Positions 8,551-42,229 of a DNA stretch of 53,146 nt are shown here, one piece after another. The stretch lies in NCBI RefSeq assembly GCF_000337735.1, contig NZ_AOHX01000002.1, forward strand, positions 65,810 through 118,955, written 5' to 3'. This DNA comes from Natronorubrum sulfidifaciens JCM 14089. GTDB lineage: Archaea; Halobacteriota; Halobacteria; Halobacteriales; Natrialbaceae. The stretch's first letter is position 1. Each line of letters starts with the position of its first letter. The notes under the pieces are model-generated. The model saw only the letters and a list, made by a program, of their open reading frames with translations, searched no databases and had not been told where the DNA came from. Both the position numbers and the translations under genes were made by a program.

Positions 8551-10176
8551 TTAGAGATACCCCAGATCCGAGAGTCGGTCTTCGACGGCCGTCTCATCGG
8601 TCGCACGGATCGGATCGGGTTCGTAGGCGGGGTACGATGCCTCCGTCTCGCCGTCGATAACGGGGAGCGTCGTCCCATCCATCTCGGTGTCGACAGGGAT
8701 ATCGAACAGCGTACAGATTGTCGGTGCGACGTCGAATATCGTCGCGCCCTGAATCGTGGCCGACTCGTCGAACTCGGTGCCCGTGGCCGCGACGACGCCG
8801 GTCTGCTTGTGATTCCACGACTCCATCGGCTCGCCGAACTGGTCGACCCCGACGTCGGCGACGATCGCGTTGTTGAACGCTGTGGGAACCGTCAGGATAT
8901 CGGGACCGTTGTCGATGTGCGGCCCGGAGAAGTACGCCTCCCGTGGTTCGACCGCCTCGAACATGGGTTCACCGTCCGGTGTTCGGACAGCGGAGAGTTG
9001 GTCGATGAGCTCCGCCCGGATCGACTCGTACTCCGATTCCGGCACTTGTCCGTTCGGCTCCCGTCCCTCGAGGTTGATTCGGATGCCCAACTCGCTTTTG
9101 GATCGGACGTACGCCTCCGACTCCGGGAAGTCGACCTGTTCGCTCGCGGCCCGGATCATGTCGTTGGGGATGCGGCTGCCGATCGGCTCTTTCAGGTTGA
9201 CCGTCTCGAGGGCGCTTGCGACTCGCTGTGTCGTGAGCCCGACCGTTGCGGCCACGTTCATCAACTGCTCGAGGGCGCTGCCGTCGTGTTGGCCGGCGTC
9301 TTCGCCCTCGAGAAGGTCGTTTTCCCACGCTTTCGACCAGGTCGGCATCCCTTCGCCGCCGCTTTTGGCCTCGAGGAACCCCTGTTCGCGGAAGAACTCG
9401 TTGACCCGAAACTCCGTTCCGGTCACTTTCCCCATTCCGTGGTCGCTGACGACCAAGATGTTGTCCGGATCGGTCGCCTCGATCGTGTCCGCGAGTTGTC
9501 GGTCGACAACACGGTAGACGGCTTCGATCGCCTCTTTGTCCCCCGGTCGCTCGTGGAACACGGTGTCAGTCTGTTGGAACTGGAGGAAGCCGAAACCGGG
9601 ATCGACCCGCCGACACAGGTATCGGAACGCCTTCCCGCGGCGGTCGATCGTCTGCTCGTAGCCGTCGATCGACTGGTCCGGCGCGTCGGTGCTCTGTGGG
9701 TAGACGTGATAGTCGCCACAGGCCATTTTGACGTCCTCGAGAACCCCTTCGGGGTGGCAGGTCGGTTCTTCCGGCGCGGTCATCCCCGGGATCAGTGCGC
9801 CATCGAACGCCGTGGGTGGATGGGTGACGGGAACGTTGACGACGACACTCGAGATGCCGTGTTCGCTCAACAGTTCCCAGACTGGCCGCTCCCGTACGTG
9901 TGTCGAGTTGACGACGTCCCAGTCGTAGCCGTCGAACGAGAGGAAATCGAAGACGCCGTGTTTCCCCGGATTCTTCCCCGTGTACATCGACGGCCACGCG
10001 CTTGCCGTCCACGGCGGAATCTGTGACTCGAGGGCGCCGCTGGTCCCGGTCTCGAACAGTCGCTGGAGTGTTGGAATCTCGTCCGCCTCGAACAGTGGCT
10101 CGAGGATCGAACGGCAGCCAGCATCGAGCCCAACAACGAGGAGGCGAAGGTCAGTTTCGTCGGCCGAATCTCTCAT
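8551..10176 (-). CDS. Alkaline-phosphatase-superfamily phosphodiesterase
   Basis: A 541-residue protein of the type I phosphodiesterase/nucleotide pyrophosphatase branch. The first metal-binding Asp lies in LLVVGLDAG. The segment PPWTASAWPSMYTGKNPGKHG carries the nucleophile region, and VVSDHGMG is the second metal-binding motif. No signal peptide or membrane anchor is visible, so it is probably cytoplasmic. The natural substrate, a phosphodiester or phosphomonoester, cannot be read from sequence. It is the first gene of a two-gene operon with the FemAB-like transferase. Homologs often sit in haloarchaeal polysaccharide or glycosylation loci. Confidence 0.85.
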   Translation of the reverse strand: MRDSADETDLRLLVVGLDAGCRSILEPLFEADEIPTLQRLFETGTSGALESQIPPWTASAWPSMYTGKNPGKHGVFDFLSFDGYDWDVVNSTHVRERPVWELLSEHGISSVVVNVPVTHPPTAFDGALIPGMTAPEEPTCHPEGVLEDVKMACGDYHVYPQSTDAPDQSIDGYEQTIDRRGKAFRYLCRRVDPGFGFLQFQQTDTVFHERPGDKEAIEAVYRVVDRQLADTIEATDPDNILVVSDHGMGKVTGTEFRVNEFFREQGFLEAKSGGEGMPTWSKAWENDLLEGEDAGQHDGSALEQLMNVAATVGLTTQRVASALETVNLKEPIGSRIPNDMIRAASEQVDFPESEAYVRSKSELGIRINLEGREPNGQVPESEYESIRAELIDQLSAVRTPDGEPMFEAVEPREAYFSGPHIDNGPDILTVPTAFNNAIVADVGVDQFGEPMESWNHKQTGVVAATGTEFDESATIQGATIFDVAPTICTLFDIPVDTEMDGTTLPVIDGETEASYPAYEPDPIRATDETAVEDRLSDLGYL

Positions 10177-10495
10177 AGTCGTCTTCCACAGCGTACCGTG
10201 ATTTTGTTATCCGACTGTTTTCACCTGTAGGCTCAGACTGCGTTCATGACATCGAATCGTGTGAGTAACGGGATCTGGTCTGTAAGCGATCCCTGATCAT
10301 GCTCGTCTCGCTAGTATCATCCCAATCACTATAGACCACGTTCGTCGTATATGATGGCTGTGTTGACACGCGGACGCGCTCCGACGAGGCCAACACGCGT
10401 CACACACCGACCGAACACGAACACCGTCGCCACGGGAGACGCGTCTCGAGGCTCGTTCGGCCCGCGACCGACTGTCGTCCGATACTCCGATACAG
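10177..10495. other. Divergent intergenic region
   Basis: About 320 bp between the phosphatase-like operon and the aminotransferase-like gene. It should contain both promoters. Words such as CACTATAGAC and GTATATGATG occur at 10328-10355, but no box is positioned well enough to assign. No coding frame is supported. Confidence 0.4.
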
Positions 10496-11611
10496 ATGAT
10501 CAGCGAACATCCGATACTGTCCGTCCGCTCGCTATCCGAGCCACAGCCCGCCGGTCTTAAATCGTTTCTCGAGCGTTCGTCGACCGATTGCTCGTTCTAT
10601 GGCTCCGGGAAGGCGGCGCTGTATGACGGTCTTGCCGGGCTCGTCGATGCCGGAGACAACGTTCTCGTTCCCGCATACCTTCCGGACGCAGTCGTCGAAC
10701 CGCTGACCGAGCTTGGTCTCGAGACCCGCTACTATCGACTGCAGGAGGATCTCGCGCCCGATCTCGCTGACGTCGAACGGCGGCTCGATGACGAGACGGT
10801 CGCAGTCATGTCCGTCAACTACTTCGGCTTTCCCCAGCCCGGACTCGAGGAGTTCATTTCGCTCATCGATGAGTACGATTGTTACCACATCGACGACAAC
10901 GCTCATTCCCCGATCAGTGTCGACAATGGTGTGTTGTTGGGGACTCGCGGTGATCTCGGTGTGACGAGCCTCTGGAAGCTGTTGCCGATCCCCGACGGTG
11001 CGGTCCTCTACTGCAACGACGACACCGTTGCCGAGCAGGTCGTTCCGTCGTCGTTTGCCGGTGTCCAGTCGCAGTTCGGAGGCGACGACTGTCGGTTTCT
11101 CCTCAAATCCGTGGTCGCCAGTCTGCTCGAGACGAACGAGACGATCCATCGGTCAGTCGATGCGTTCGTCGCCAGTCGTGGGCCGTCTCGGTCGGTTCCG
11201 GGTCCCGTGGCTCGATACGAGGCCGGAAAAAAACCGATGTCGAAACTGTCGGCCCACGTCGTCGAGCACGCGGACCCGCGGACGATCCGTGACGCCCGTC
11301 GCGAAAACTACCTCGCGTGGCACCGGATCTTCGACACTCGCCAAGACGCCGAGACTCTCTACGAGTCGTTACCTGAGGGGATCTGTCCGCAGGTCTTCCC
11401 GATTCGAGCCGCCACCCCACACCGACTCCTCGAGGACCTCGAACGCTGTGGTGTCGATGGCGCACACACGTGGCCACGCCTCTCGAGTACCGTTCTCGAG
11501 AGTTCGACGTACGACGTTTCGACGACGCTGTCTCGAGAGGTCCTCGTCTTGCCCGTCCATCAGCACGTCGAGTCGGCGACGATCGAGGCTGTCGGCGACC
11601 GATTGCCGTAG
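10496..11611 (+). CDS. DegT/DnrJ/EryC1/StrS-like PLP aminotransferase
   Basis: A 371-residue protein with the fold-type I aminotransferase pattern of sugar aminotransferases. SGKAALYDGLAGLVDAGDNVLVPAYL is the cofactor-phosphate region, HIDDNAHSP (residues 131-139) carries the PLP-ring Asp, and SLWKLLPIPDGA places the Schiff-base lysine at about Lys161. It probably aminates a keto-sugar, but the C-terminal half is diverged and the substrate is unknown. Proximity to the FemAB-like and AlkP-like genes on the other strand suggests a shared role in surface-sugar metabolism (inference). Confidence 0.75.
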   Translation: MISEHPILSVRSLSEPQPAGLKSFLERSSTDCSFYGSGKAALYDGLAGLVDAGDNVLVPAYLPDAVVEPLTELGLETRYYRLQEDLAPDLADVERRLDDETVAVMSVNYFGFPQPGLEEFISLIDEYDCYHIDDNAHSPISVDNGVLLGTRGDLGVTSLWKLLPIPDGAVLYCNDDTVAEQVVPSSFAGVQSQFGGDDCRFLLKSVVASLLETNETIHRSVDAFVASRGPSRSVPGPVARYEAGKKPMSKLSAHVVEHADPRTIRDARRENYLAWHRIFDTRQDAETLYESLPEGICPQVFPIRAATPHRLLEDLERCGVDGAHTWPRLSSTVLESSTYDVSTTLSREVLVLPVHQHVESATIEAVGDRLP

Positions 11612-11687: not shown

Positions 11688-13379
11688 TTACTCGGCGTTT
11701 GCCATCGCGTTCAGTTCCGATCGGATGTCGTCATCGAGCGTGTACGTCCGTTCGGCGGGTCGATCGAGAACGCCTTCGGTCCGCAACTCCGAGAGCAGTC
11801 CCTGCACTGCGACCGCCGATCGATCGACGCGGTCGGCGACGGCAACTGTCTCGAGCGCTCCGTTTCGGGCCAAGACCACGAGCGATTTTCGTGCTGTTTC
11901 GACGGTACACTGTGACTGGTCGGCCGCGCGCGTGAGTCGGTCGTTGATCCACTCCCCGTCGAAGTCCGCCTCGTCAATCGCTGTCGTCGCTGGCGTGGTG
12001 ACCGGTGACCGATCGCTGGTCGCCATCTCTTCCCTCTCATCCTCCGCAGTCGACTCCCCGAACGGCGTGTAGCCGAACTCGATCTCGTCACCGCCAGCCT
12101 GAATAATCGTCGACTCCGCCGTGGCGTCTCTCTCCTGTGTCGTCTCGAGGTCGGTCACTCGCTCTCGCAGCCGTTTGTTTTCCCCGCGCAGGCGCTCTAT
12201 CGTCTCCGCTCGCGAGTCGAGTTTTGCCTCGAGCGTTTCGATCCGATCGTCTCTCTCGGCGAGTGTCGACTCGAGGTCGTCCCGCTCGGTCTCGAGGGCG
12301 TGGAGTTCGTCGTGGAGTCGCCGTTGTTCGTCCTCTGGCAGTTGTGTCTGAACGGTGTTCGGTCCCGTCAGCGCATCCGCCATCTGCTTGGCCGCACTCG
12401 AGACGTCCCGGGCCGACTCGAGGTCGGCTTCCAGTGTCTCGATGCGTTTTTCTTTTTTCTCGAGTTCGTTCTCGAGTTCGAGGATACGGTTTTCCTCGTG
12501 TTGCTTTCGCTCCGAGATGTCTTGGAGGTCGCCAACGAGCGCATCGGAGACGGACTTCAGTTCGGGCCGTTCGAAGTCGTCGAGTCCGGGCGTCGCGCCC
12601 GCGTCGAAGGTCCGTTTTCGACGGAACTGGACCTTTCGGACATCCGTTTCGGTCCAGTCGGTCTGAACGAACGCCTGTCCGTCGTTGAGTTCCGAGACGA
12701 GTTCCGAGTACTCGGTGTCGATGATTCGGCCGACGACCTTAGTGTCGTTATCCCATGTCAACCGGTGCCAGACGAGCCAGTTCGCCTGCGTGATGAAATC
12801 CTTCTTGACGTCGGCTGGTCGCTGGCTGATCCCGAGGATGCCGAGGCCGTGCTTGCGCCCGCGCTTGCTGATCTTGATCAACAGGTTCCCCGTCTCGCCG
12901 ACGCCGCCACCCTCTGGAATGTACTCGTGGACCTCCTCGACGACCAGCAGGAAGGGCTTTTTCAGCTTCTTCTCTTTGACGAACAGCTGGCGGGCGATCT
13001 TCCGCAGGAGTTCGTCCGCAACCTCTTCGTCGAGGTAGCCCGAGACGTCGAGGATCACCGGGACGTTCTCCTCGAGTGCCAGCGACGCCATCTGTTCGGC
13101 GTGTTCCGGCCCGATTTGGATGTCACACTCCTCGTCGGCCCCGGCGTGGAGCATCTCGTACTCCTCTTTCAGCCCGTAGTACTCGCCGTCGGTGTCGACG
13201 ATCAACAGCGGAAAGCCCGCCTCGAGTAACTCCTCGGCGATGACCGATGCCGTGTTCGACTTTCCAGAGCCCGACTTTCCGGTGACGAATCCGCGGCCGG
13301 TCAGCAACTCAACGACGGGCAGGTACAAGTCCTGTCTGTCGGCCGTCTCGCCGACGAGAATCTCACGTTGGTCGCTCAC
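11688..13379 (-). CDS. HerA-like (DUF87) ATPase with coiled coil and C-terminal winged helix
   Basis: With the GTG start at 13379 the protein has 563 residues. GKSGSGKS (34-41) is the Walker A motif, FLLVVEE (143-149) is Walker B, and the SQRPADVKK segment matches the HerA/FtsK-like sensor region. Residues ~300-430 are a long coiled coil; the last ~80 residues look like a winged helix (ARKSLVVLARNGALETVAVADRV). HerA-type ATPases are hexameric DNA translocases, often in end resection with NurA, but no nurA lies here. I chose GTG because GGTGAT sits six bases upstream and a TATA-like word lies about 35 bp upstream. The frame stays open for another ~100 codons only because it runs through the 9-bp repeat field. 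Confidence 0.85.
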   Translation of the reverse strand: MSDQREILVGETADRQDLYLPVVELLTGRGFVTGKSGSGKSNTASVIAEELLEAGFPLLIVDTDGEYYGLKEEYEMLHAGADEECDIQIGPEHAEQMASLALEENVPVILDVSGYLDEEVADELLRKIARQLFVKEKKLKKPFLLVVEEVHEYIPEGGGVGETGNLLIKISKRGRKHGLGILGISQRPADVKKDFITQANWLVWHRLTWDNDTKVVGRIIDTEYSELVSELNDGQAFVQTDWTETDVRKVQFRRKRTFDAGATPGLDDFERPELKSVSDALVGDLQDISERKQHEENRILELENELEKKEKRIETLEADLESARDVSSAAKQMADALTGPNTVQTQLPEDEQRRLHDELHALETERDDLESTLAERDDRIETLEAKLDSRAETIERLRGENKRLRERVTDLETTQERDATAESTIIQAGGDEIEFGYTPFGESTAEDEREEMATSDRSPVTTPATTAIDEADFDGEWINDRLTRAADQSQCTVETARKSLVVLARNGALETVAVADRVDRSAVAVQGLLSELRTEGVLDRPAERTYTLDDDIRSELNAMANAE

Positions 13380-13499: not shown

Positions 13500-14363
13500 C
13501 CGACACTCTCTAAACAGCCCACACTTTTCACACAGTGTACACAGTGTATACGATGTACACGGTTCACACTGTTTGCACGTCACCAAGGGTTCGTTGTATC
13601 CGTCCGACTGCGACACTGGTTGATCGCTCACCGAATCACACTGTGTAGATCTTTTACACCGTGTATGCAGTTTCATTGATGCTCGCAGAACAGTTGCGAC
13701 GACACTCGAGTCTCGAATGTGAACCTGCCTCGATTCGGTTTGGCTACGAACTGCTCGAGCGTTCCGAACGCCCTCTGCGGGACATACTGTTTACGCTGTT
13801 CGGACAGTTTACACTTTGTACACGGTGTATACTTTCTAAACTATCTAAACTTTCTAATTGAGATGTCTAACACGGAACTGTCCTACACCCCATCAGAACT
13901 CGACTATGGATAGCTTCTGGTACACCGTTCACACGGTGTCGTCCAATTTGACAGGTACACGGTGTAGACAGTGTAGAATGTGTAGACTGTTTTCCGCTAC
14001 TGTTAAGTCCGATTGATTGAATGATAGGCGTGTTACTCGCCACAGCAGACTGGTTCACTCTCAACTGGACATCGCACAATGTTTCTACCGTGTACACGCT
14101 GTCAGACGCTCGCACACCGTCGCCGGGTCGGACAGTCGTTCGATCGCTCGAGACCGATGCTAACCGAACGGTCTACGCACTCCAGACGGCTTACACAGTT
14201 CACACTGTGTAGACGGTGTTCGAGTTCGAACCTGCTCGGCTCGTCCCGGTCTCGGCGGTATTTCTCCGAACAGTGTCCACGGTCTACACAGTGTCAACCG
14301 TCTCGACCTCGAGCACCGTGTTCGATTTCCGAACGGTCGGCACCGTCCACGCAGTTGCTGTGG
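13500..14363. repeat. Field of 9-bp phased tandem repeats (iterons), candidate centromere or operator
   Basis: The interval is filled with degenerate 9-bp units near TGTACACNG (variants TTCACACNG, TCTAAACTN, TGTAGACNG, TCCGAACGG). Blocks with strict 9-bp period occur at 13500-13580, 13635-13688, 13781-13861, 13919-13953, 13954-13989, 14091-14225 and 14265-14363. The strongest units are 13527-13571, 13808-13852, 13963-13989, 14190-14216 and 14274-14300. All units run in the same direction, but adjacent units form ACACNGTGT, so the array is nearly symmetric on both strands, as expected for a two-fold symmetric binding protein. There are roughly fifty slots, about half of them close matches. Neither CRISPR spacers nor a coding frame explains it. 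It separates the HerA-like gene from the SegAB-like pair. Confidence 0.85.
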
Positions 14364-14383: not shown

Positions 14384-15217
14384 ATGACGACACAGACCCC
14401 ACGCGCCGTCAGCGTCGCCCTCCAGAAAGGCGGCGTCGGCAAAACGACCATCGCGATCAATCTCGCGGAACGACTCGCTAACCGAGACAACGACGTCTTG
14501 CTCGTCGACTTGGACCAGCAGGGCAACGCCACCGAAGGTGTCGGGCTGAGCGAAGCCTACACGAGCGATGTCCACCTTGGCGATGTTCTGGAAGATGGTT
14601 CGGAGACATCGCTCGAGGACGTGATCCGTTCGACCGACGCCTTCGACGTGTTGCCGGCCCACGAGGACTTAGACAGCGTCGAAAACAGCATTCGAAGCGC
14701 GACCTTTGGCGAGTTGTGGATCAGAAACGAGATCGTCGACCCGGTGTTGGGCGAGGAGTACGACTACGTCGTCGTTGACTCGCCGCCGAACCTCGGTCCG
14801 CTCGCCGATGCCTCGCTGATCTCGACACAGAACGTTATCGTCCCGCTGCGGATGAGCGAACCAAGCGTTAGCGGCTTCGAGCGCATGTACACCCAACAGA
14901 TCGGCCCGATCCGCAAGGAGATCGACCTCGACATTCTCGCGATCGTTCCGAACTCGCTCGCCGGCGACAACGAGGAAAAGCGAATCATCGGCGATCTCGA
15001 GGAGTCTCAGTTCGGCGACTTCCTCCCGTCGTTCGCTCGGTCGGACCACTTCGACGATCCCGATTCGCCCGGCCCCGGCCTCCGCGAGCGGATCGCGTTC
15101 AAACGGGCGTGGCGCGAGGGCGTCCCGCTTGCGGCGTACGACCCGGACAACGACATGCTCGAGCGACTCGACGAACTGGCGGCGACCGTCGAACGCGGAG
15201 GTGTCGACGATGCCTGA
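14384..15217 (+). CDS. ParA/SegA-like partition ATPase
   Basis: A 277-residue ATPase of the ParA/MinD (SIMIBI) family. KGGVGKTT at residues 15-22 is the deviant Walker A with its signature lysine, VLLVDLDQQGNAT is the switch I region, and YDYVVVDSPPNLGPL is switch II. ParA proteins form ATP-dependent dimers on DNA and move or position a partner bound to a centromere. The next gene overlaps by 8 bp and encodes a small putative DNA-binding partner. The repeat field immediately upstream is a natural candidate for that partner's site. This layout resembles SegA-SegB of Sulfolobus rather than bacterial ParA-ParB, because no ParB domain is present. Chromosomal partition is inferred; plasmid origin cannot be excluded. 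Confidence 0.85.
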   Translation: MTTQTPRAVSVALQKGGVGKTTIAINLAERLANRDNDVLLVDLDQQGNATEGVGLSEAYTSDVHLGDVLEDGSETSLEDVIRSTDAFDVLPAHEDLDSVENSIRSATFGELWIRNEIVDPVLGEEYDYVVVDSPPNLGPLADASLISTQNVIVPLRMSEPSVSGFERMYTQQIGPIRKEIDLDILAIVPNSLAGDNEEKRIIGDLEESQFGDFLPSFARSDHFDDPDSPGPGLRERIAFKRAWREGVPLAAYDPDNDMLERLDELAATVERGGVDDA

Positions 15218-15632
15218 GGACAACCGGTTCGCCGGGCTCAGCGAGGCCGTCGACGAGGACGATTCTGACGATTCCGTTGACGAGTCGACGAGCGACGGTG
15301 ACTCGAGTGCGACGACGGTCGAGTACGATTCGGCCGCGGACGAAACAGCGATCGACGACGAACCGTCCGCCGACAGCGCCGACGGCGAATCGACCGACGT
15401 CGACGACCCCACCGCGTTTCCGTTCGACGCGACGGAAAAGAAGACGGTGTATGTCCGTCCCGAAACGATCGACGCACTCGAGGACGCGCGGGCGCTAGTC
15501 GACGCCCAGTTGCGAACCGACCACGACGTTCGCGATCTGACCGGTCGGGAGTTCTACGACGCGGTCTTCCGGCTCGCAGCCGCCGATACCGACGGCTTGA
15601 TCGAGGAACTGCTCGAGGCCCGCGAGGAGTAG
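15210..15632 (+). CDS. Putative SegB-like partner with disordered acidic N-terminus and RHH-like C-terminus
   Basis: A 140-residue protein. Residues 1-74 are acidic and low in complexity (Asp, Ser, Glu) and probably disordered. Residues 77-84 (KKTVYVRP) look like a beta strand, followed by a helix at 85-101 and a second at 111-124 (TGREFYDAVFRLAA), consistent with a ribbon-helix-helix fold; a short helical tail follows. Sulfolobus SegB has the same plan of flexible N-terminus plus RHH domain. The ATG overlaps the end of the ParA gene by 8 bp, so translation is probably coupled. It should bind the upstream 9-bp repeats as a dimer. The fold is inferred from pattern, not from a database match. 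Confidence 0.6.
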   Translation: MPEDNRFAGLSEAVDEDDSDDSVDESTSDGDSSATTVEYDSAADETAIDDEPSADSADGESTDVDDPTAFPFDATEKKTVYVRPETIDALEDARALVDAQLRTDHDVRDLTGREFYDAVFRLAAADTDGLIEELLEAREE

Positions 15633-15640
15633 CCCCCACG

Positions 15641-17611
15641 TTACTCGTCGCCGCTGTCGGCTTCGCGACTGCGGTCGACTGTCTGCTCTCGGATCGTCAT
15701 CCCCTTACGACCGAGATGCTGGAGCTGTTTTCGGGCGAAATCCTCCTCGCGCGTGCCGTAGGTCGCGAGCACGTACACGAGCGCGCCGCCAGCCGGCCGC
15801 ATCGTTCGGCCAGCCCGCTGGGTTCCCTGCCGTCGCGAGCCACCCAGTCCCGAGGCGATGATCGCGAGGTCGGCCGTCGGCAGGTCGATCCCCTCGTCGC
15901 CGACGCGGGAGATGATCAGCAGGTCGCGCTCGTTTCGTCGGAACTCCTCGAGCAACCGGCGTCGCTCGTGGTGGGGCGTTTCCCCGCTGAGGAAGGGAAC
16001 GTCGAGCGCGGCCGCGAGGTCCCGTCCCTGCTCGAGGTAGTCGACGAAGACGATCGCCTTCGAGTCGGGGTGGGCCGAGAGCAGGTATCGGACGTCGTCG
16101 ATCTTCCCGCGATTTTTGGCTGCGATTCGGTACTTCTCGCGGCCGTCGGCGGAGACGTAGGCGTTTTGCTGTTCGTCGTCACCCCACGGCACGTAGCGGA
16201 TCTCGAGTTCCGGTTCGGCGACGAAGCCGGCCTCGAACAGCGCCTCCCAGTCGGTGCCGATCGGTGGGCCAACGAGCGTGAAGATCTCGGTCTGGCGGTC
16301 GTCTTCCCGGATCGGGCTGGCGGAGAGCCCGAGTCGATGACGAGACTGGAGGTGCGTACTCCGCCGGTAGACGTCCGAAGGGACGTGCTGGCACTCGTCG
16401 AAGACGACCAGTCCCCACTCGCGGTCGTCGAACAGCGACCGATGGCGGTCCATGCCAGCGATCTGGTAGGTCGCGATCGTGACCGGGCGAACCTCCTTTC
16501 GGCCCCCGTGGTACTGCCCGATCTGATGGGGCTCGAGGGAAGTGTACTCTGCGATCGACTCGGCCCACTGGCGCGCGAGATCCCGACTCGGGACGAGCAC
16601 GAGCGTTTCCCCGCCGACGTGGGCCATCGCCCCCATCGCCGCGATCGTCTTCCCACTGCCCGGCGGGCCGACGAACACACCCTCACCGGCCTCGGCGAAG
16701 CGGTCGACCCACGTTTGCTGGTAGTCCCGCAGGCGTACCTCGAGGTCGATCGAGAGCGACTCGCCGGCCTCGAGATCCCGGTGGTCCTGAACCGGATAAC
16801 CCGCTTCGTAGAGGATGCGCTTGATGGCTGCTTCTGCGCCCTCTCGTACCCAGTCTTCGGTCTCGGAGATCGGCGCGTGGACGTGTTCCTCGTCGAGTTT
16901 CTGTCGGGCGACGTTGCCCATCACTTCGGGCGTTTTGGCCTCGAGCACCGTGTAGCCGTCCTCGTGGGTCGCCAGTCGGAACTGATGGGCGCGATCCCAT
17001 TGGCTCTCGACCCACTCCTCGAGCGCATTCGAGCGCTGGCCCAGTGCCTGTCGCATCGTCCGCGCGAGACCCTCGAAACTGTCGTGGGGGGCCTGCCAGA
17101 TGTCCTCCGGGCGGACAACGTACCGGTAGCCGTCCTCTCCGTTGCCGTCCGCGAGGTGGGCGAACTGCGAGAGTTGGGCCCGCGTGAACTGCTCCGGTCG
17201 GTCGACGATTATCTCGCGGCGTTTCGGAAAGACGACCACGCGTTCCCGGTCGGTCAGGTCCTCGAGTTCACTGGGATACCAGACGACGGGATCGGTTTCC
17301 ACGGCCAGTCGCTCGATGTCGCCGCGGGCTGTGAGCCCCACCAGCGCCTCGCTGGCCGTCTCGTGTGGGAGTTCGAGAGCCTGTGCGACGGACGCGGCGG
17401 TGAGCACGGGACGTCCCGCCTGCTGGCACGCGTCGTGGAACTCGTCGAGTGACAATTCTTCCAGTTCCTGTTCACCCTCGAGATCGTCCGCTGGCGGCTC
17501 GTCGCCGGCGTCTTCGCCGGTCGAGTGGTCGTCGGTATCGGGCGCATCCGGGGAGCGTTCGTCAGTCACTGGCCGGTCTAACGGCGGTATGGGTAAACCG
17601 ATTTCGTTCAT
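15641..17611 (-). CDS. XPB/Rad25-type superfamily II DNA helicase
   Basis: A 656-residue helicase. The first ~120 residues are an acidic tail plus a winged-helix-like segment. GPPGSGKT (315-322) is Walker A, DECQ (405-408) is the DEAD-like motif, LGLSASPIREDDR is motif III, and RRQGTQRAGRTMRP is motif VI. XPB opens DNA in eukaryotic transcription initiation and repair; in archaea it often works with the nuclease Bax1, which is not seen here. I chose the ATG at 17611 (MNEIGLPIPPLD) because residues upstream of it are basic and unlike the rest. It converges on the SegB-like gene, nine bases away, and is divergent from the gene at 17724. Confidence 0.9.
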   Translation of the reverse strand: MNEIGLPIPPLDRPVTDERSPDAPDTDDHSTGEDAGDEPPADDLEGEQELEELSLDEFHDACQQAGRPVLTAASVAQALELPHETASEALVGLTARGDIERLAVETDPVVWYPSELEDLTDRERVVVFPKRREIIVDRPEQFTRAQLSQFAHLADGNGEDGYRYVVRPEDIWQAPHDSFEGLARTMRQALGQRSNALEEWVESQWDRAHQFRLATHEDGYTVLEAKTPEVMGNVARQKLDEEHVHAPISETEDWVREGAEAAIKRILYEAGYPVQDHRDLEAGESLSIDLEVRLRDYQQTWVDRFAEAGEGVFVGPPGSGKTIAAMGAMAHVGGETLVLVPSRDLARQWAESIAEYTSLEPHQIGQYHGGRKEVRPVTIATYQIAGMDRHRSLFDDREWGLVVFDECQHVPSDVYRRSTHLQSRHRLGLSASPIREDDRQTEIFTLVGPPIGTDWEALFEAGFVAEPELEIRYVPWGDDEQQNAYVSADGREKYRIAAKNRGKIDDVRYLLSAHPDSKAIVFVDYLEQGRDLAAALDVPFLSGETPHHERRRLLEEFRRNERDLLIISRVGDEGIDLPTADLAIIASGLGGSRRQGTQRAGRTMRPAGGALVYVLATYGTREEDFARKQLQHLGRKGMTIREQTVDRSREADSGDE

Positions 17612-17691
17612 CGAGCGCCGCCCCGTCGTCGTATCGGTCGCCTCTCGGAATCGCGCTGTGATTCGAGGGCCGGTCTCTCTCTCGGTGCTGT

Positions 17692-17701
17692 AATTTATAC
17701 G
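17692..17701. promoter_or_regulatory. TATA region of a divergent promoter
   Basis: AATTTATAC lies about 28 bp before the ATG at 17724, giving a leaderless transcript. Read on the other strand, GTATAAATT could serve the XPB gene with a leader of about 55 bases. Confidence 0.6.
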
Positions 17702-17723
17702 AGAACACGCACCCAACCTCGGC

Positions 17724-18089
17724 ATGGTTCATCTCGAGTGGGAAACCGATCGTCGGAACGGCGTCACGTTCGTCTCGGCGATCGTACACAACGAGCAGCC
17801 AACACCACAGACCGTCCGCCTCGAGAGTCGATTCGACGGACCAACGTGGTCGCCCCGAGGAGACGCTGACACCGCTCTCGAATGGGACGGCGATCTCTGG
17901 ACGGGAACGATCGCCCCGAAACGCCATCGTGGCGTGGGTTTTGCAACGCCAGCAGCGCCAGTGGAGCCGCCACTCGAACTCGTCGACGCATCTCGCACAT
18001 CGGATACTACCGGAACTGAATCCGAGGCAGTGGTTCAGTCTCTCGACGAGTGGCAACCACCAAGAGACGTTCTGACCCGGATTCCATGA
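17724..18089 (+). CDS. Conserved haloarchaeal hypothetical protein (beta-rich)
   Basis: A 121-residue acidic protein. The first ~80 residues are rich in predicted beta strands (HLEWETDRRNGVTFVSAIVHNEQ, TVRLESRF, LEWDGDLWTGTIAP) and resemble a small Ig-like sandwich. I recall a similar haloarchaeal domain, DUF7857, but am not certain. No catalytic or membrane motif is seen. Its stop codon overlaps the ATG of the MinD-like gene (ATGA), so the two are translationally coupled, which suggests it is a partner of that ATPase. Confidence 0.65.
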   Translation: MVHLEWETDRRNGVTFVSAIVHNEQPTPQTVRLESRFDGPTWSPRGDADTALEWDGDLWTGTIAPKRHRGVGFATPAAPVEPPLELVDASRTSDTTGTESEAVVQSLDEWQPPRDVLTRIP

Positions 18090-18763
18090 TCGTCGCCGTG
18101 ACTGGTGGCAAAGGCGGCGTCGGCAAGACCACGGTGGCGCTAAACCTGGCTCGAGAACTCGACGCCGTCGTCGTCGACGCCGATCTCACAACACCCGACC
18201 TCCCGCGCAGTGGTGGGCCTGATCTGCACGACCTCTTGGCCGGGCGCGCGAAGCCGCGTGAAGCACTCACACAAATTGGTTCTGTGCGTGTCCTCTCTGC
18301 AGGCAGAACGCTCGCCGGTACACGCGCGGCCAAGCTGACGGCGTTCCCTGAAATCGTCGACCGGGTTGAACGCCGATGTGGACACGTCGTCGTCGACTGT
18401 CCGGCAGGGCTGGCCCGTGACGTTGGCATCGCACTCGACAGCGCCCACGTCGCGGTGCTCGTCACCACGCCGACCGAGCCGGCGGTGGTCGATGCACTTC
18501 GGACGCGCCAGCTTGCACTCGAGCTCGAGACGCCAATCGCAGCGGTCGTCCTCAATCGGACGTCGACTATCGACACCGAGCGCTTCGACCGCAATTTCGC
18601 CGCGCCGACGATCGCGATCGACGAACTGTCGACCGTTGTTGAGGCACAACGACAGTGGCGTCCGGTTCGAGATGTCGATCCAACGTGTTCGGCCGTTGAA
18701 AACTTCGAAACGATCGCGCGGTCTGTCGAACGCTGCGAGCAACGCCGTTCTCGTCACCGCTGA
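18086..18763 (+). CDS. MinD/ParA-like ATPase
   Basis: A 225-residue SIMIBI-class ATPase. VTGGKGGVGKTTVALNL gives the deviant Walker A (KGGVGKTT, residues 9-16), VVVDADLTTPDL is switch I, and HVVVDCPAGLARD is switch II. It is shorter than typical MinD (about 260 residues), and the C-terminal amphipathic membrane helix is not obvious. Haloarchaea carry several MinD paralogs that position archaella, chemoreceptors or pili at the poles, and such a role fits the pilus-like cluster that follows. The ATG at 18086 is chosen because it overlaps the upstream stop; the frame is open further 5' only inside the preceding gene. Confidence 0.85.
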   Translation: MIVAVTGGKGGVGKTTVALNLARELDAVVVDADLTTPDLPRSGGPDLHDLLAGRAKPREALTQIGSVRVLSAGRTLAGTRAAKLTAFPEIVDRVERRCGHVVVDCPAGLARDVGIALDSAHVAVLVTTPTEPAVVDALRTRQLALELETPIAAVVLNRTSTIDTERFDRNFAAPTIAIDELSTVVEAQRQWRPVRDVDPTCSAVENFETIARSVERCEQRRSRHR

Positions 18764-21271: not shown

Positions 21272-22996
21272 TCAGAGGATGATCCCGATCCCGCCGACCG
21301 TCACGACGTACAGTATCATCGAGGAAACGAGCGCGCGGCCGACGTGATAGCCGATGAGCGCCCGATCGACACCGTGTTTGAGCGCGATCGAAAGCGGTAG
21401 CAAAATCCCACACAGCATGACGAGATAGATGCCGACGACGACTGCAAGTGATTCGACCGGGAAGGCGGCTGCATCGACCGTACCCGAAGTGAACAGCGCC
21501 TCGTTGGACATCATCGCTGCCATGCCGACGGTCGCGCCGGCGACCAGCGGCGCGAAGTACGCAGCCGTGTTGTCGAGCGTTCCGGTCACGTTCGAGAGGC
21601 GCTGTTTGGTCTCGGCTTCGACGTCGGCGAGTTCCTCTAAGTGGTCGGCCATCGACACGATCGCACGGCCGGCGGGTTTTCCCTCGTCCGAGGCGATTGC
21701 GAGCAGGGCAGCCGTCCCTCGAGCTCGAGGGCTGGGGACGTCTCGTAGAGCACCGTACTGCCCGAGAAAGGCCGACTCTACGCCGACGTGGAGCCGTTGC
21801 TGGACGCCAGCAGCGTGTTCGAAGACCGTCCCCGTTTCGGCTGGGACGCGCTCTGCCGCGAGCTCAATTGCTGACTCGACGGATTCGCCCTCGGCAACCT
21901 GTCGGCCGACGATATACAGGGCGTCAGTGAGATGTGCTTCGACATCTCGGACGTAGTGTCTCACGGACAGAATCGGGCTGTAGACGGCCAGCAGAACGAC
22001 GCCAATGCTGAGTCCGACGGCGACAACTGGTGCGAGATGGGCCGGGCCGACTGTGACCGTCGCCGCGTAGCTTCCAACGCCTGCGAACAGTCCCCACACT
22101 GCACGAAGCCAGAGTCGATCCGGAACGTCTGGATGGGCGTGTTCGACCTTCGGCGGTGGAAACGCGACTGGGCGGCGAACGAGCAACCAGCCGCTTGCGA
22201 CGATCAGACAGGCCGGGAGGACGACGTTGTATACCAAGACGATGATCCAGATATTGATCGCAAAGCCAACCATCGGAATGGCTGGAACGAGTGCGATGAG
22301 TGCGAGCGGAATCATGACCCCAAACGCGAACAGGCCGTTCGTCGGAGCTCGGATCGACGACGTAAACGCTGCCATCTGGCTTCGCGTGCCATTGAGAACG
22401 GCCGCGAGCGCCCGATCGAGTGTACGTCCCCGTTCCGCTTCCGGCGCTTCCTGTGCTGTCGCAAGCAGATGCGCCGACCGTCGCACAGCCGGAAACCACT
22501 CGGCCCACTCCGTTGCAAACGAGAGCAACCCCGTCTCCGGCGTTCCCATCGCCCGGTCGGTATGCGCGGCGAGGCTGTCCGCCAGCGGACCGGTTCCGGT
22601 GTCGGCTGCAAACCGGACGGCGCTCTCGAGTGCTGGCTGGACTTGCATGCGAAGGACGATTCGACCGATGAGGTTCGGCGTTGCACCGAGTGCTTCAGTT
22701 CGATGGAACGCCGCCTGAATATGGGGTATCGAGTGGACGGTGTGAATCACCGAAAGCGGCGTCACGAGTGCGAAAAACAGCACGAACAGAAGTGGTGCAC
22801 CAGTAAGCGCTAGTAGCAGTGGAACGAGTGTTGCGACGATGCCGGCACCGTAGCCTGCTCGAACGATCGTCTCGGCGTCGTGTGGCGAGCCGACGAACGA
22901 GAGTGCATCCACCAACTCGTCGTTGTCGGCATCGACGTCGGACGGGTAGAGCGCGGCGAGTCCTCGAATGATCACCGCGAGTGACAGTCCTCCCAT
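21272..22996 (-). CDS. Type II/IV pilus inner-membrane platform protein (PilC/TadC-like)
   Basis: A 574-residue protein with about nine hydrophobic segments arranged as two T2SS-F-type halves, each with a cytoplasmic helical domain (the first around LGATPNLIGRIVLRMQVQPALESAV, the second around YIVGRQVAEGESVESAIELAAERVP). This is the platform protein that anchors the assembly ATPase and drives pilin insertion. The start is six bases after the stop of the ATPase gene, so the two are co-translated. The tandem double-F layout is typical of archaeal pilus systems. The cargo pilin is not certain; a candidate lies at 27231. Confidence 0.85.
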   Translation of the reverse strand: MGGLSLAVIIRGLAALYPSDVDADNDELVDALSFVGSPHDAETIVRAGYGAGIVATLVPLLLALTGAPLLFVLFFALVTPLSVIHTVHSIPHIQAAFHRTEALGATPNLIGRIVLRMQVQPALESAVRFAADTGTGPLADSLAAHTDRAMGTPETGLLSFATEWAEWFPAVRRSAHLLATAQEAPEAERGRTLDRALAAVLNGTRSQMAAFTSSIRAPTNGLFAFGVMIPLALIALVPAIPMVGFAINIWIIVLVYNVVLPACLIVASGWLLVRRPVAFPPPKVEHAHPDVPDRLWLRAVWGLFAGVGSYAATVTVGPAHLAPVVAVGLSIGVVLLAVYSPILSVRHYVRDVEAHLTDALYIVGRQVAEGESVESAIELAAERVPAETGTVFEHAAGVQQRLHVGVESAFLGQYGALRDVPSPRARGTAALLAIASDEGKPAGRAIVSMADHLEELADVEAETKQRLSNVTGTLDNTAAYFAPLVAGATVGMAAMMSNEALFTSGTVDAAAFPVESLAVVVGIYLVMLCGILLPLSIALKHGVDRALIGYHVGRALVSSMILYVVTVGGIGIIL

Positions 22997-23002
22997 CGTC
23001 GA

Positions 23003-24958
23003 TTACCCGTCCTCGAGTCGCCGGCCGGCGTAGGCTGTGGCCACCTCCCGTGGACGTGTTCGCCCAGCATCCGCGAGGGTTTCGGTCCGTGTCGCTCGTT
23101 CGTCGATCGCCGCCCGAACGTCGGCGTACGTCTCGGTCGGTCTGGCGAGTTGGTTGACGACCCGGCTTTCACCGCGGTCGATCCGGCCAGTTGGAACGGC
23201 CCGTGTCCCCTCGAGTTTGAACAACGACTCGAACCAGATGTCGTCACCGTCGGTGACGACCTCCTCGATGCTGGCAAGCCGTCGTGTTCGCCCGGTTGCG
23301 GTTCGATGTGCCTGTACCGTGACCACGAGATCAGTCGTGCTGAACGAGGACGGGGCGACGCCTAGATCGGAGACGACGCGTTCGTAGACATCCCCGGCCC
23401 CGTCGCCGTGGATCGTGCCGAGAACCGCGTTCGCGTTGGCCCCGACTCGCATCGCTTCGTACAGCACCTGTGCTTCGTCGCCCCTAATCTCGCCGACGAC
23501 GAGTGCGCCATCGCCGAGCCGAAGTGCTGTTTTGAGCGCGTCTTTGGGTGTAATTTCGGGCCCGTCACCGCTTCCGGTTCGAAGTGCCTGTACGTCTCGA
23601 CCGACGGATTGGAGCGCCTCGACCGGGAGCTCGGGAGTGTCCTCGATCAAGACGGTTCGAGTACCCGGGGTGAGTTCGTACAGCAACGTGCCGAGCAACG
23701 TCGTCTTCCCCGACCCTCGAGTCCCGGCGATCAGTGCGGCGGCGTTTCGTTCGACGGCAACCGAGAGAAACGCTGCCACCTCGGCTGGCATGGTTCCGTT
23801 CGCGACGAGGCCCGGTAGCGTGAACCGGTCGGCCGCGCGTTCTCGGAAGGCGAAAGCGACGCCATCGGCGACCGGATCGGTGACGCCAGCGACGCGGACC
23901 CCGGTTCCGTTCTCGAGAGCTGCCGTGGCGTCGACTGTCGGATTTGCTCGCGAGAATGCGCGTCCGCTGGTCCGGCGAACGCGGGAGGCGAGTGCCCGTG
24001 CACCGTCTTGGGTCAGAAAGACGTTCGTCGCCATCGATTCGCCGTCGACGACGACGCGGACTGGGTTCCGCGCGACTGGCGACGTGACGTAGACATCGCT
24101 TACTCGCTGATCCGCAAACAGATCCTCGAGGATTCCATAGCCTGCCGTATGCTTTCTGAGCACGGTGGTGAGCAGCGGGTCGGCTGACTCGTCGCTTCCC
24201 TGCTCGAGCGCTTGCGATGCGACGCGGTCGCCCTCGACTGCTCCCTCGGCGATCGCTTCGTAGCCGTCGACGAGGCGTCTCCGTTCTGCGCTCGTCAGCG
24301 AGAGATCGACGATATCGAGGACGTAGTGTGGCACACCATCCTGTCTCGTATAAATTCGGACGTCAGTGCCCGTATCGAGCGTTCGCACGTCTCTGAGTCG
24401 AGTTCCGTCGCCGATCGATGGGTCAAGACGGTAGTGACCGATGGTGAGTCCAACGGTCGGTGAAAACGCGTCCTCGTAGCTATCGAGTCCCTGCGCAGCG
24501 CGTGTGAGTCCAGCGTCGATCCCGATATCGGCGACTGGACCGACCCGCATCGTCACTTCGTCCGCGATCGCGAGTGGGTCATCCAGCGCCGTCATCGTCA
24601 GTCGGTCGTTCCGCTCACCGAGGCGATCGACGAACCGGCCGGCTGAACTGCAGAGGCCGACGCCACGGCCACGATACTGGCGCTCGAGGCCGTTGCTCCG
24701 AACGACGATCCGACTCGCGTCTCGATCAGTTAACGCGTCGACGACGGTTCGGCGACACGCGGCCGCCGTCGCCAACTGGCCGTCGCAGTCGCTTGCCTCG
24801 AGGACGAGTGTGTCGCCGTCGAACGACACGTGACACGAACAGCCACCTGACGAGTCGTCCTCGCTGCCGAATCGATCGATACGACTGGCGAGTACTCCAC
24901 GGATGTCCCGCCTATCGATGATCGAACGAAGCCCGTTTGTTGTCCCGTCCTGTGTCAT
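23003..24958 (-). CDS. Type II/IV secretion system ATPase (PilB/VirB11-like)
   Basis: A 651-residue assembly ATPase. An N-terminal Cys-rich segment (Cys40, 42, 58, 68) could bind metal. AGTRGSGKTT (411-420) is Walker A, TVLIEDTPELP is the Asp box, ALVVGEIRGDEA is Walker B, and TIHGDGAGDVYERVV is the His box. It powers pilus or secretion assembly together with the PilC-like protein encoded immediately downstream. The ATG at 24958 is supported by a TATA box about 27 bp upstream; residues in front of it are Ser/Arg-rich and overlap the neighbouring gene. Confidence 0.9.
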   Translation of the reverse strand: MTQDGTTNGLRSIIDRRDIRGVLASRIDRFGSEDDSSGGCSCHVSFDGDTLVLEASDCDGQLATAAACRRTVVDALTDRDASRIVVRSNGLERQYRGRGVGLCSSAGRFVDRLGERNDRLTMTALDDPLAIADEVTMRVGPVADIGIDAGLTRAAQGLDSYEDAFSPTVGLTIGHYRLDPSIGDGTRLRDVRTLDTGTDVRIYTRQDGVPHYVLDIVDLSLTSAERRRLVDGYEAIAEGAVEGDRVASQALEQGSDESADPLLTTVLRKHTAGYGILEDLFADQRVSDVYVTSPVARNPVRVVVDGESMATNVFLTQDGARALASRVRRTSGRAFSRANPTVDATAALENGTGVRVAGVTDPVADGVAFAFRERAADRFTLPGLVANGTMPAEVAAFLSVAVERNAAALIAGTRGSGKTTLLGTLLYELTPGTRTVLIEDTPELPVEALQSVGRDVQALRTGSGDGPEITPKDALKTALRLGDGALVVGEIRGDEAQVLYEAMRVGANANAVLGTIHGDGAGDVYERVVSDLGVAPSSFSTTDLVVTVQAHRTATGRTRRLASIEEVVTDGDDIWFESLFKLEGTRAVPTGRIDRGESRVVNQLARPTETYADVRAAIDERATRTETLADAGRTRPREVATAYAGRRLEDG

Positions 24959-24980
24959 GGCGACACTGGCCGCGTATTCT

Positions 24981-24990
24981 GATATAAACT
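24981..24990 (-). promoter_or_regulatory. TATA box of the PilB-like gene
   Basis: The reverse strand reads AGTTTATATC, about 27 bp before the ATG, and overlaps the stop codon of the preceding gene. The transcript should be leaderless. Confidence 0.65.
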
Positions 24991-25451
24991 CACGGATGAC
25001 TCGCGACGATAACGGGATCTCCATTCGAATCCGAGTGGAGCGTGAGCACCACTTCGAACTCTCCTGGCCCATCGAACTCGATCGGTTCGGTGTCCGCTGG
25101 ATCGAGCCAGACGACCCGTTCGTCGATGATCGTCTCCCGTGTCGTTCCGTCCTCGAGGACGTACCGAGCGTGGCTGAAGCTGCCGTTTTCGTGAGGAACG
25201 ATCTCAAAGTGGTCGACAGCGGTGGTCGTCACTGATCGGGCCGGTACCGTCACCGTCACAACGCGCTGTGGATTGGGATGACTCGCTGGTGAGTGCTCCT
25301 CGGTTGCCACGGCCGTTGTTGCGTCGTCGATAGCTGCGATACTCGAGTCAACCGTTCGTTCGGTGTTCATCGTCGATCCACGGTCGAGGACAGGCATGGC
25401 AACCGCCAGCAGTGCGATCGTCAGCACAACGGCAAGCACGTATCGGATCAC
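24990..25451 (-). CDS. Single-pass membrane protein of the secretion cluster
   Basis: A 153-residue protein with an N-terminal hydrophobic helix (YVLAVVLTIALLAVAMPVLD) and an extracytoplasmic beta-rich domain (VVTVTVPARSV, GEFEVVLTLHSDSNGDPVIV). I recall this as the haloarchaeal DUF7311 family, with limited certainty. It starts with GTG, overlapping the stop of the coiled-coil gene upstream (GTGA), so the two are translationally coupled. A pilus accessory role is inferred from neighbours. Confidence 0.7.
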   Translation of the reverse strand: MIRYVLAVVLTIALLAVAMPVLDRGSTMNTERTVDSSIAAIDDATTAVATEEHSPASHPNPQRVVTVTVPARSVTTTAVDHFEIVPHENGSFSHARYVLEDGTTRETIIDERVVWLDPADTEPIEFDGPGEFEVVLTLHSDSNGDPVIVASHP

Positions 25452-30787: not shown

Positions 30788-31414
30788 ATGGCTGATCAAA
30801 CTAACTCCTCGGAGTCCGAGAGGCCGTGCTGTAAAATCGGACGAGTTGCAGATCGATATGATCTCTCGAGTCTCGATGCAGATCTCATTGCGTACTGGAC
30901 TGGCGAGTCCGAAGAGCAGTACAGTACCCGTGAACTCGCGACGTACGTTAATCAGCGTGTCCTCGAGTCCGCACTCCAGACGGCCGGCGTCGCTGTCAAA
31001 GAAGGTGAAGTCGAAAACACGTACCGGTTGCTCACGGACACTGATGTCAGCAGCCGGACACAGGTACAGACGCGAACCGAACTCGAGCGTGACGGTGTCC
31101 CTGTCGAACAGGTCGAATCTGATTTCGTCTCTCATCAGACGGTGTACAATCATCTGACAGACTGTCTTGAGACCTCACTCGAAACGCCAAGCGACGAGGA
31201 GCGCCTCGAGCGAAGCGTAGAAAAACTCGGTGCCCTCCAGAACCGAACCGCCGCGGTCACGGCAGATACCATTTCCCAACTCAAGCGGAACGGGATCGTT
31301 GAGATGGGTGAACACAGTGTTACCGTCTCGATTACAGTCACATGTGAGGAGTGTTTTCAGGAGTATACAGTCAGGGAACTGCTCGATGAGCGAGCGTGTG
31401 ATTGTTACGAATAA
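30788..31414 (+). CDS. rdfA: Rod-determining factor RdfA
   Basis: A 208-residue protein with the family's N-terminal signature CCKIGRVADRYDL followed by WTG...YSTRELATYVNQRVL. A C-terminal Cys cluster (CEECF, then ERACDCYE) could bind zinc. In Haloferax volcanii RdfA is a cytoplasmic factor needed for the rod shape of motile cells. The region from ~25 to 120 looks helical and could be DNA- or protein-binding. An SMC-related gene follows 110 bp downstream, an arrangement I recall for other haloarchaeal rdfA genes. Several paralogs usually exist per genome, so this copy need not be the shape-determining one. Confidence 0.85.
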   Translation: MADQTNSSESERPCCKIGRVADRYDLSSLDADLIAYWTGESEEQYSTRELATYVNQRVLESALQTAGVAVKEGEVENTYRLLTDTDVSSRTQVQTRTELERDGVPVEQVESDFVSHQTVYNHLTDCLETSLETPSDEERLERSVEKLGALQNRTAAVTADTISQLKRNGIVEMGEHSVTVSITVTCEECFQEYTVRELLDERACDCYE

Positions 31415-31524
31415 GACACTATCCGAGCGTAATTTCTGATTGGCATCTGCTTGGTGATCGCCAGTGTATCATCCGTGAGACTGGAGTGGTAATACCTATC
31501 TGTCAGGAGCCGAAACAGCGTAGT

Positions 31525-41846: not shown

Positions 41847-42229
41847 CGGACACACAGGATGGGAGCTACGACGCGTTCCTCGACGCACTCGAGGCCGGCG
41901 ATGGCTACTACTATGAGTGTGCGGATGGCCACGCGCTGGTCCCGCCTCGGCGTGTCTGTCCACACTGCGGTGACCGAGAGTTAGAGCGGGTGGAACTGCC
42001 CGAAACGGGTTCGATCGTCACTCACACGACTGTCGCCGTTCCAACGCCACAGTTCGAAGACGATGCGCCGTACGTCACGGCGATCGCGACGTTCGGACAG
42101 GTGAAACTGACCGGCATCCTTCGAGATGTCGATCCGAACGACGTCGAAATTGGGCAGGAAGTCACCGTCACCATCGACACAGCCGAAACCACTGACGATC
42201 GGACGATCACGTTCGACCGACACAGCTAG
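41843..42229 (+). CDS. Zn-ribbon OB-fold protein (DUF35), thiolase partner
   Basis: A 128-residue protein. CADGH and CPHCG give a rubredoxin-like zinc-ribbon around residues 22-45, and the rest forms the OB fold (THTTVAVPTPQFEDDAPYVTAIATFGQVKLTGIL). Such proteins bridge thiolase and partner enzymes and channel acyl-CoA. A strong ribosome-binding site (GGAGGTGA at 41831-41838) lies inside the thiolase gene, and the two are translationally coupled. Confidence 0.92.
   Translation: MTDTQDGSYDAFLDALEAGDGYYYECADGHALVPPRRVCPHCGDRELERVELPETGSIVTHTTVAVPTPQFEDDAPYVTAIATFGQVKLTGILRDVDPNDVEIGQEVTVTIDTAETTDDRTITFDRHS

Follow-up and report, generated by a model that had tools for sequence, protein, structure and literature searches.

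A putative partition locus with a tandem array of 9-bp palindromes on haloarchaeal plasmid DNA

SegB, the partner of the ParA-type ATPase SegA of Sulfolobus, has a disordered N-terminus. The two Sulfolobus genes form an overlapping ParA-partner pair in an archaeon, as at the locus described here, and two papers place the sites of the system upstream of the ParA gene (PMC5120986, PMC12284271); the second of these counts 46 sites of the 13-bp form TCTAGA-S-TCTAGA over the chromosome. In the type Ib delta-omega-parS system of pSM19035, a ParA without an N-terminal DNA-binding domain works with a small partner that reaches it by the N-terminus, and the centromere consists of contiguous short repeats overlapping promoters (PMC9499535); other partners, too, are said there to touch ParA via the N-terminus. 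On the secondary replicons of Deinococcus a direct-repeat array lies upstream of parAB (PMC7671480). The haloviruses phiCh1, phiH1 and ChaoS9 encode a ParA with an overlapping uncharacterised gene, and the phiCh1 partner is acidic. A 2016 review named two questions as open: by what means halophilic archaea segregate a chromosome together with megaplasmids, and what form archaeal centromeres take (PMC5120986).

Here we describe a locus in a 53,146-nucleotide stretch of the Natronorubrum sulfidifaciens JCM 14089 genome (contig C2, positions 65810-118955; genome G000 in our set), referred to below as the window. The features discussed are as follows.

14384..15217, plus strand: parA, encoding a ParA ATPase of 277 aa, assigned from motifs and domain matches
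15210..15632, plus strand: partner gene, encoding a putative centromere-binding protein of 140 aa, assigned from sequence, alignment and model
13503..14321, no strand: array of clustered 9-bp palindromes (ACACnGTGT) at a 9-bp pitch, putative centromere
13530..13574, no strand: longest unit run, five consecutive 9-bp units, from the unit scan
11688..13379, minus strand: HerA/FtsK-like coiled-coil ATPase gene, divergent to parA, with the start set by analogy with a 562-aa N. bangense coding sequence
15641..17725, minus strand: XPB-like helicase gene, a conserved neighbour on most related plasmids

We read this locus as the partition (par) locus of a large haloarchaeal plasmid, made up of ParA, a centromere-binding partner and an iteron-centromere and belonging to a haloarchaea-specific family, with a probability of roughly 0.8.

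The ParA gene and its partner

ParA carries a deviant Walker A motif (KGGVGKT) at residue 15, a Walker A' motif (LLVDLDQQGN) at residue 39 and a Walker B motif (VVVDSPPN) at residue 129, and it matched AAA_31 (8.9e-36) and CbiA in a Pfam/NCBIfam scan. It has no N-terminal DNA-binding domain (HTH), as in type Ib, and with its deviant Walker A motif it belongs among type I ParA proteins. Its best solved relatives by sequence include Soj chains (3e-21 to 9e-21), which we take to be those of H. pylori and Thermus, and the 220-aa chain 7dut, presumably SegA, matched at 8e-12, more weakly than bacterial Soj (3e-21). The 277-aa ATPase and the 140-aa partner had been noted earlier to overlap by 8 bp; the overlap is confirmed at 15210-15217, and the two genes form an operon. 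We examined 73 loci drawn from relatives of the partner, namely the window, L045, L048-L078 and 40 matches hand-picked for sufficient flank. Since 100 of 243 genomes from the order carry such a relative and ParA lies directly upstream of the partner, on the same strand, in 71/73 loci, the pairing exceeds chance, and the partner lies downstream as in type I systems. These 71 loci are the systems counted below, L063 and L064 being left out for want of a ParA. By the script-chosen start of the partner, the overlap with ParA measures 1-11 nt in 68 of the 71.

The partner consists of an NRFAGL motif (residues 5-10), an acidic linker (11-67; 42% D/E, no K/R) and a conserved C-terminal domain (about 68-140). 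Its N-terminus is indeed acidic and of low complexity, as had been proposed, with 27 D/E and one K/R within the first 74 residues. Among 27 close orthologues the N-terminal NRFAG is invariant and the acidic linker variable, and Y.R ... RE ... DA of the C-terminal domain is kept even in distant members. A regular expression found F..[LVI] near the N-terminus of 64/71 partners; the seven others comprise three whose start was mis-chosen by the script (L053, L060, L071) and four variants (L121, L122, L145, L146). The orphan homologues L063 and L064, which have no ParA, keep the C-terminal domain and are missing the motif. The N-terminal F..[LVI] motif is coupled to the presence of ParA and, by analogy, fits a ParA-docking peptide on a tether. 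Against a role in partition one can set the N-terminal arginine of NRFAGL: it would be apt for a finger that stimulates the ATPase, yet some family members lack it and carry variants such as NPFDDL and MGFDDL. The orphan genes lie at 10317-10919 (minus strand) of L063 and 9422-10330 (plus strand) of L064, and their C-terminal domain may be reused for another purpose.

Searches with the partner gave no match in Pfam or NCBIfam at E<=1 or among the PHROGs at E<=0.1, which agrees with the earlier note in that no ParB domain is present, neither the ParB N-terminal part nor its HTH. A Pfam scan of 27 partners yielded chance matches only, with no DNA-binding family among them. A profile of the partner found the family in 23 of 294 genomes of a phylum sample, all within the order of N. 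sulfidifaciens. In the AlphaFold2 monomer (pLDDT 72 for the whole protein, 87 for the C-terminal domain) three confident helices, 84-105, 112-125 and 127-139, follow an extended stretch at 76-83. The strand-helix-helix pattern suggested for this domain is therefore retained in its helices and not in its strand, since 76-83 is not assigned as strand in the monomer. Comparison of the whole model and of the C-terminal domain with PDB and BFVD (Foldseek/VIA-align) returned nothing significant and listed no RHH entry, and hhalign gave 0.2% against an alignment of haloarchaeal RHH_1 proteins. The suggestion of an RHH-like partner thus gained no support from fold search or profile comparison, although absence of a match is compatible with an RHH fold. 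An RHH monomer could possibly resemble the predicted model, but helix A is long (22 residues).

The 9-bp array upstream of parA

The units of the array sit in the 1-kb intergenic region between the divergent parA and HerA-like genes. At least 24 ACACnGTGT units (<=2 mismatches) stand in 9-bp register from 13530 to 14294, in several clusters. Their column counts (A 21, C 17, A 24, C 22, n, G 21, T 24, G 17, T 21) describe the unit and do not test it, because the units were picked by this pattern. The 1,230 bp upstream of parA contain 15 units at <=1 mismatch, compared with 1.6 in shuffles (maximum 5 in 50 dinucleotide-type shuffles). A tandem model of period 9 with no preset motif scored 464.9, the highest of 15 shuffles reaching 70.9, and the other periods (7, 8, 10 and 11) scored lower on the array, at 132-301. 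Across the N. sulfidifaciens genome, 15 of 36 forward matches to the doubled pattern (<=3 mismatches) fell in the array, and the reversed control matched 9 times genome-wide. The array is restricted to one place on the replicon: peaks of 9-bp periodicity (z>=3.5) occur on the 155-kb contig only in this intergenic region, and the complete N. bangense plasmid (213,905 bp) has two such peaks, both in the corresponding intergenic region.

Two small arrays were also observed. One, with about five ACACnGTGT-type units in 9-bp register (counted by eye), lies at about 42134-42180 of N. sulfidifaciens contig C1 (L047 12134-12180); the other, a run of four units located by script, lies at 157065 of the N. 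bangense plasmid NZ_CP031307.1 (L193, about 7065). They occupy corresponding places on one kind of plasmid in two species, far from the main array, and are perhaps a satellite centromere site or an operator.

Because the array lies in the parA promoter region, the partner probably autorepresses the operon. The same position counts against the partition reading in that an operator role alone could account for it: the partner would autorepress parA, perhaps together with the HerA-like gene, and the centromere would be elsewhere or nonexistent. The array does cover the divergent promoter region, and some chromosomal members retain just ~200 bp of array beside the start codon. However, at least 24 units across ~0.8 kb go far beyond the needs of an operator, the contig itself holds no other array, the complete N. 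bangense plasmid adds a single run of 4 units, and the centromere of pSM19035 overlaps promoters as well (PMC9499535). We consider a purely operator function unlikely.

Arrays were scored in 180-bp windows by the excess of self-match at lags 9/18/27 over other multiples of three. A strong array (z>=3.5) was present within 1 kb upstream of ParA in 58/71 systems (25/31 of the close set, L045 and L078 included, and 33/40 of the distant set), which would correspond to the centromere-like repeats of type I systems, and the maximum of 9-bp periodicity of the locus fell within this 1 kb in 62 of the 71. Against the partition reading stand the 13 systems with z<3.5 (L061, L068, L069, L070, L071, which is borderline, L075, L122, L134, L135, L138, L142, L146 and L149); the array is weak or absent in L069, L070 and L075, the first two of which are on chromosome-size contigs. 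As controls, none of 30 oriented RHH_1 genes had an array upstream (maximum z 2.2), and the threshold was reached by 1.8% of 392 stretches of 1 kb taken from the same 20-kb loci. In the fixed interval [-400,-1], where no window selection is involved, the mean self-match over the 71 systems was 0.354/0.353/0.326 at lags 9/18/27, and at every other lag between 5 and 31 it was 0.239-0.266; control upstream stretches displayed codon periodicity only.

The letters of the unit differ between lineages. ACACnGTGT/ACAnTGT units occur in Natronorubrum and its relatives and in Haloferax, ACCTnAGGT in L078 (25/25 close site pairs spaced at multiples of 9), CTAnnnTAG at L045, contig C61 of the same N. sulfidifaciens genome, and ACGAnTCGT-type units in L121 and L126. 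These fits used the tandem model instead of an unconstrained single-unit motif search, which drifted to GC-rich coding triplets in several loci. Palindromic correlation was about 0.8 or more in most close-set fits, with exceptions such as L056, L061 and L075, and some distant fits were non-palindromic (L125, L139, L148, L155). Across most of the 71 loci the pitch is conserved while the unit letters diverge between lineages. The N. sulfidifaciens genome itself holds two ParA/partner/array systems, on contigs C2 and C61, and their units differ, as is expected if the array sets plasmid identity. Unit similarity between systems with the same residue x in the YxR stretch of the partner, compared with systems in which x differs, was 0.54 vs 0.34 at ParA identity below 45%, 0.46 vs 0.40 at 45-60% and 0.76 vs 0.46 at 60-80%, and the YxR stretch may read the unit letters. 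A simple one-residue recognition code was considered and found to be only suggestive, given the exceptions L139, L148 and L121. At about even odds, we propose a plasmid centromere family peculiar to haloarchaea, in which members of a new partner family, packed side by side, would set the pitch of the tandem 9-bp palindromes, and divergence of the letters would keep the centromeres of co-resident replicons blind to one another.

If the locus serves partition, the partner would bind the 9-bp palindromes cooperatively, one symmetric dimer per unit, and would coat the 0.8-kb array into a partition complex. The long acidic linker would let NRFAGL, or F..[LVI] in the family at large, reach ParA-ATP on bulk DNA and stimulate ATP hydrolysis. 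Plasmid copies would then ride the retreating ParA gradient to both sides of the division plane, as ParA biology suggests.

Replicon, neighbours and further alternatives

With megablast, two 25-kb segments of the window matched ~207-214-kb plasmids of N. aibiense (45% and 84% covered) and N. bangense (52% and 79%), and 73% of contig C2 aligns to the N. bangense plasmid NZ_CP031307.1. These alignments assign the window to a plasmid. A relative of the partner occurs in 34 plasmid records, all of them haloarchaeal, and they include Haloferax mediterranei and H. gibbonsii. In a class-wide sample of 39 genomes, only 4, that of N. sulfidifaciens among them, have a close relative of ParA, and the pair is therefore not a core chromosomal system. 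A role of this locus in chromosome segregation, as the earlier note had it, does not agree with its plasmid location and with this patchy occurrence.

A divergent SegAB chromosome segregation system would share the gene order with its overlap and the small partner with a disordered N-terminus, and the pair does stand on chromosome-size contigs in a few other genera (G149, G092, G225, G132, G183). We nevertheless regard this as quite improbable: the locus is plasmid-borne here and in the closest named relatives, not chromosomal, and its distribution is patchy. No sequence link leads from the partner to a SegB structure, as a PDB profile search with three partner alignments found no relevant solved structure at E<=10 in a set that presumably included the SegB chains. 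SegB-type 13-bp sites are scattered over the chromosome (PMC12284271) and are not enriched in the window, where 8 sites of the TCTAGASTCTAGA type (<=3 mismatches) were found and 7.9 expected. With no relevant PDB match, a ParA nearer to Soj than to 7dut and SegB sites at chance level, the idea that the partner follows the SegB plan was not sustained. Of the proposed extension of a SegAB-type mechanism, the parts supported are a pair in which ParA would drive DNA partition with a partner other than ParB, and a different DNA site; the chromosome role and the SegB plan gained no support.

The array might instead be made of replication-origin iterons to which ParA is merely adjacent. On G196:C3 an Orc1/Cdc6 gene does lie downstream of the partner, at a distance of about 0.9 kb, and another, on contig C61 of N. 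sulfidifaciens, ends ~1.1 kb upstream of ParA. However, the only annotated orc1/cdc6 gene of the N. bangense plasmid is ~78 kb from the array, the corresponding distances are ~88 kb on G200:C2 and ~59 kb on G106:C3, and the array follows ParA wherever the initiator sits, which makes an origin very improbable.

The block DegT - HerA-like - ParA - partner occurs in seven same-family loci, with XPB next in 6/7. The HerA-like gene is divergent across the array in all seven same-family loci scanned that hold the block, and on this sample it is a neighbour of conserved position; the XPB-like helicase is probably outside the partition system. The array is scarcely likely to be an oriT-like or HerA-like ATPase loading site of a DNA-transfer machine: for all the conserved divergence of the HerA-like gene (7/7) and the TadA/FlaI-like ATPase at 23003-25207, the ParA-partner-array unit occurs without a HerA neighbour outside this family.

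Other genes of the window were observed around the partition locus. A MinD-like ATPase of 237 aa (18050-18763) is encoded about 2.4 kb downstream of the partition pair. The TadA/FlaI-like gene is of the secretion type and lies in the region 21272-25207; on pHTUR04 the neighbour of the secretion-type ATPase is annotated as a secretion system protein, and there too it adjoins the partition block. At 30788-33483 there is a pair at the N. bangense position of rdfA (rod-determining factor) and an archaea-specific SMC-related protein, the latter matching NF045487 with 680 bits (cut-off 300); by these matches it is a plasmid-borne cell-shape/SMC pair near the partition locus.

Comparison with described systems

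A ParA partition locus on a plasmid is of a known kind; the partner family, the 9-bp palindromic pitch and the divergence of the letters across haloarchaea are new. A literature search, from which subscription journals were mostly outside, found no description of a haloarchaeal array of such 9-bp repeats. The locus offers a centromere candidate that is defined by sequence and carried on plasmids of species that can be cultured, Haloferax mediterranei and H. gibbonsii among them, and with a readable site the segregation question becomes testable by plasmid-loss and footprinting assays.

As a viral member of the family, phiCh1 (L189 2495-3656) was tried and rejected. Its ParA is only 32% identical, and its acidic partner gp46 belongs to another family (phrog_26668). 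That this ParA with its overlapping acidic partner has no array upstream counts against the partition reading; gp46 is perhaps a convergent partner type.

The Deinococcus parAB systems are bacterial and resemble the locus in the upstream position of the repeats. SegA-SegB differs in being chromosomal, in its scattered 13-bp sites and in a SegB to which the partner has no detectable sequence similarity. Our best reading, by analogy, is that the locus works like delta-omega-parS of pSM19035. The heptads of that system are 7-bp, non-palindromic and present in 7-10 copies, whereas the array described here consists of 9-bp palindromes in clusters over ~0.8 kb. Omega is an RHH protein; the haloarchaeal partner, whose model matched no RHH entry, has a 22-residue helix A and a long, variable acidic linker.
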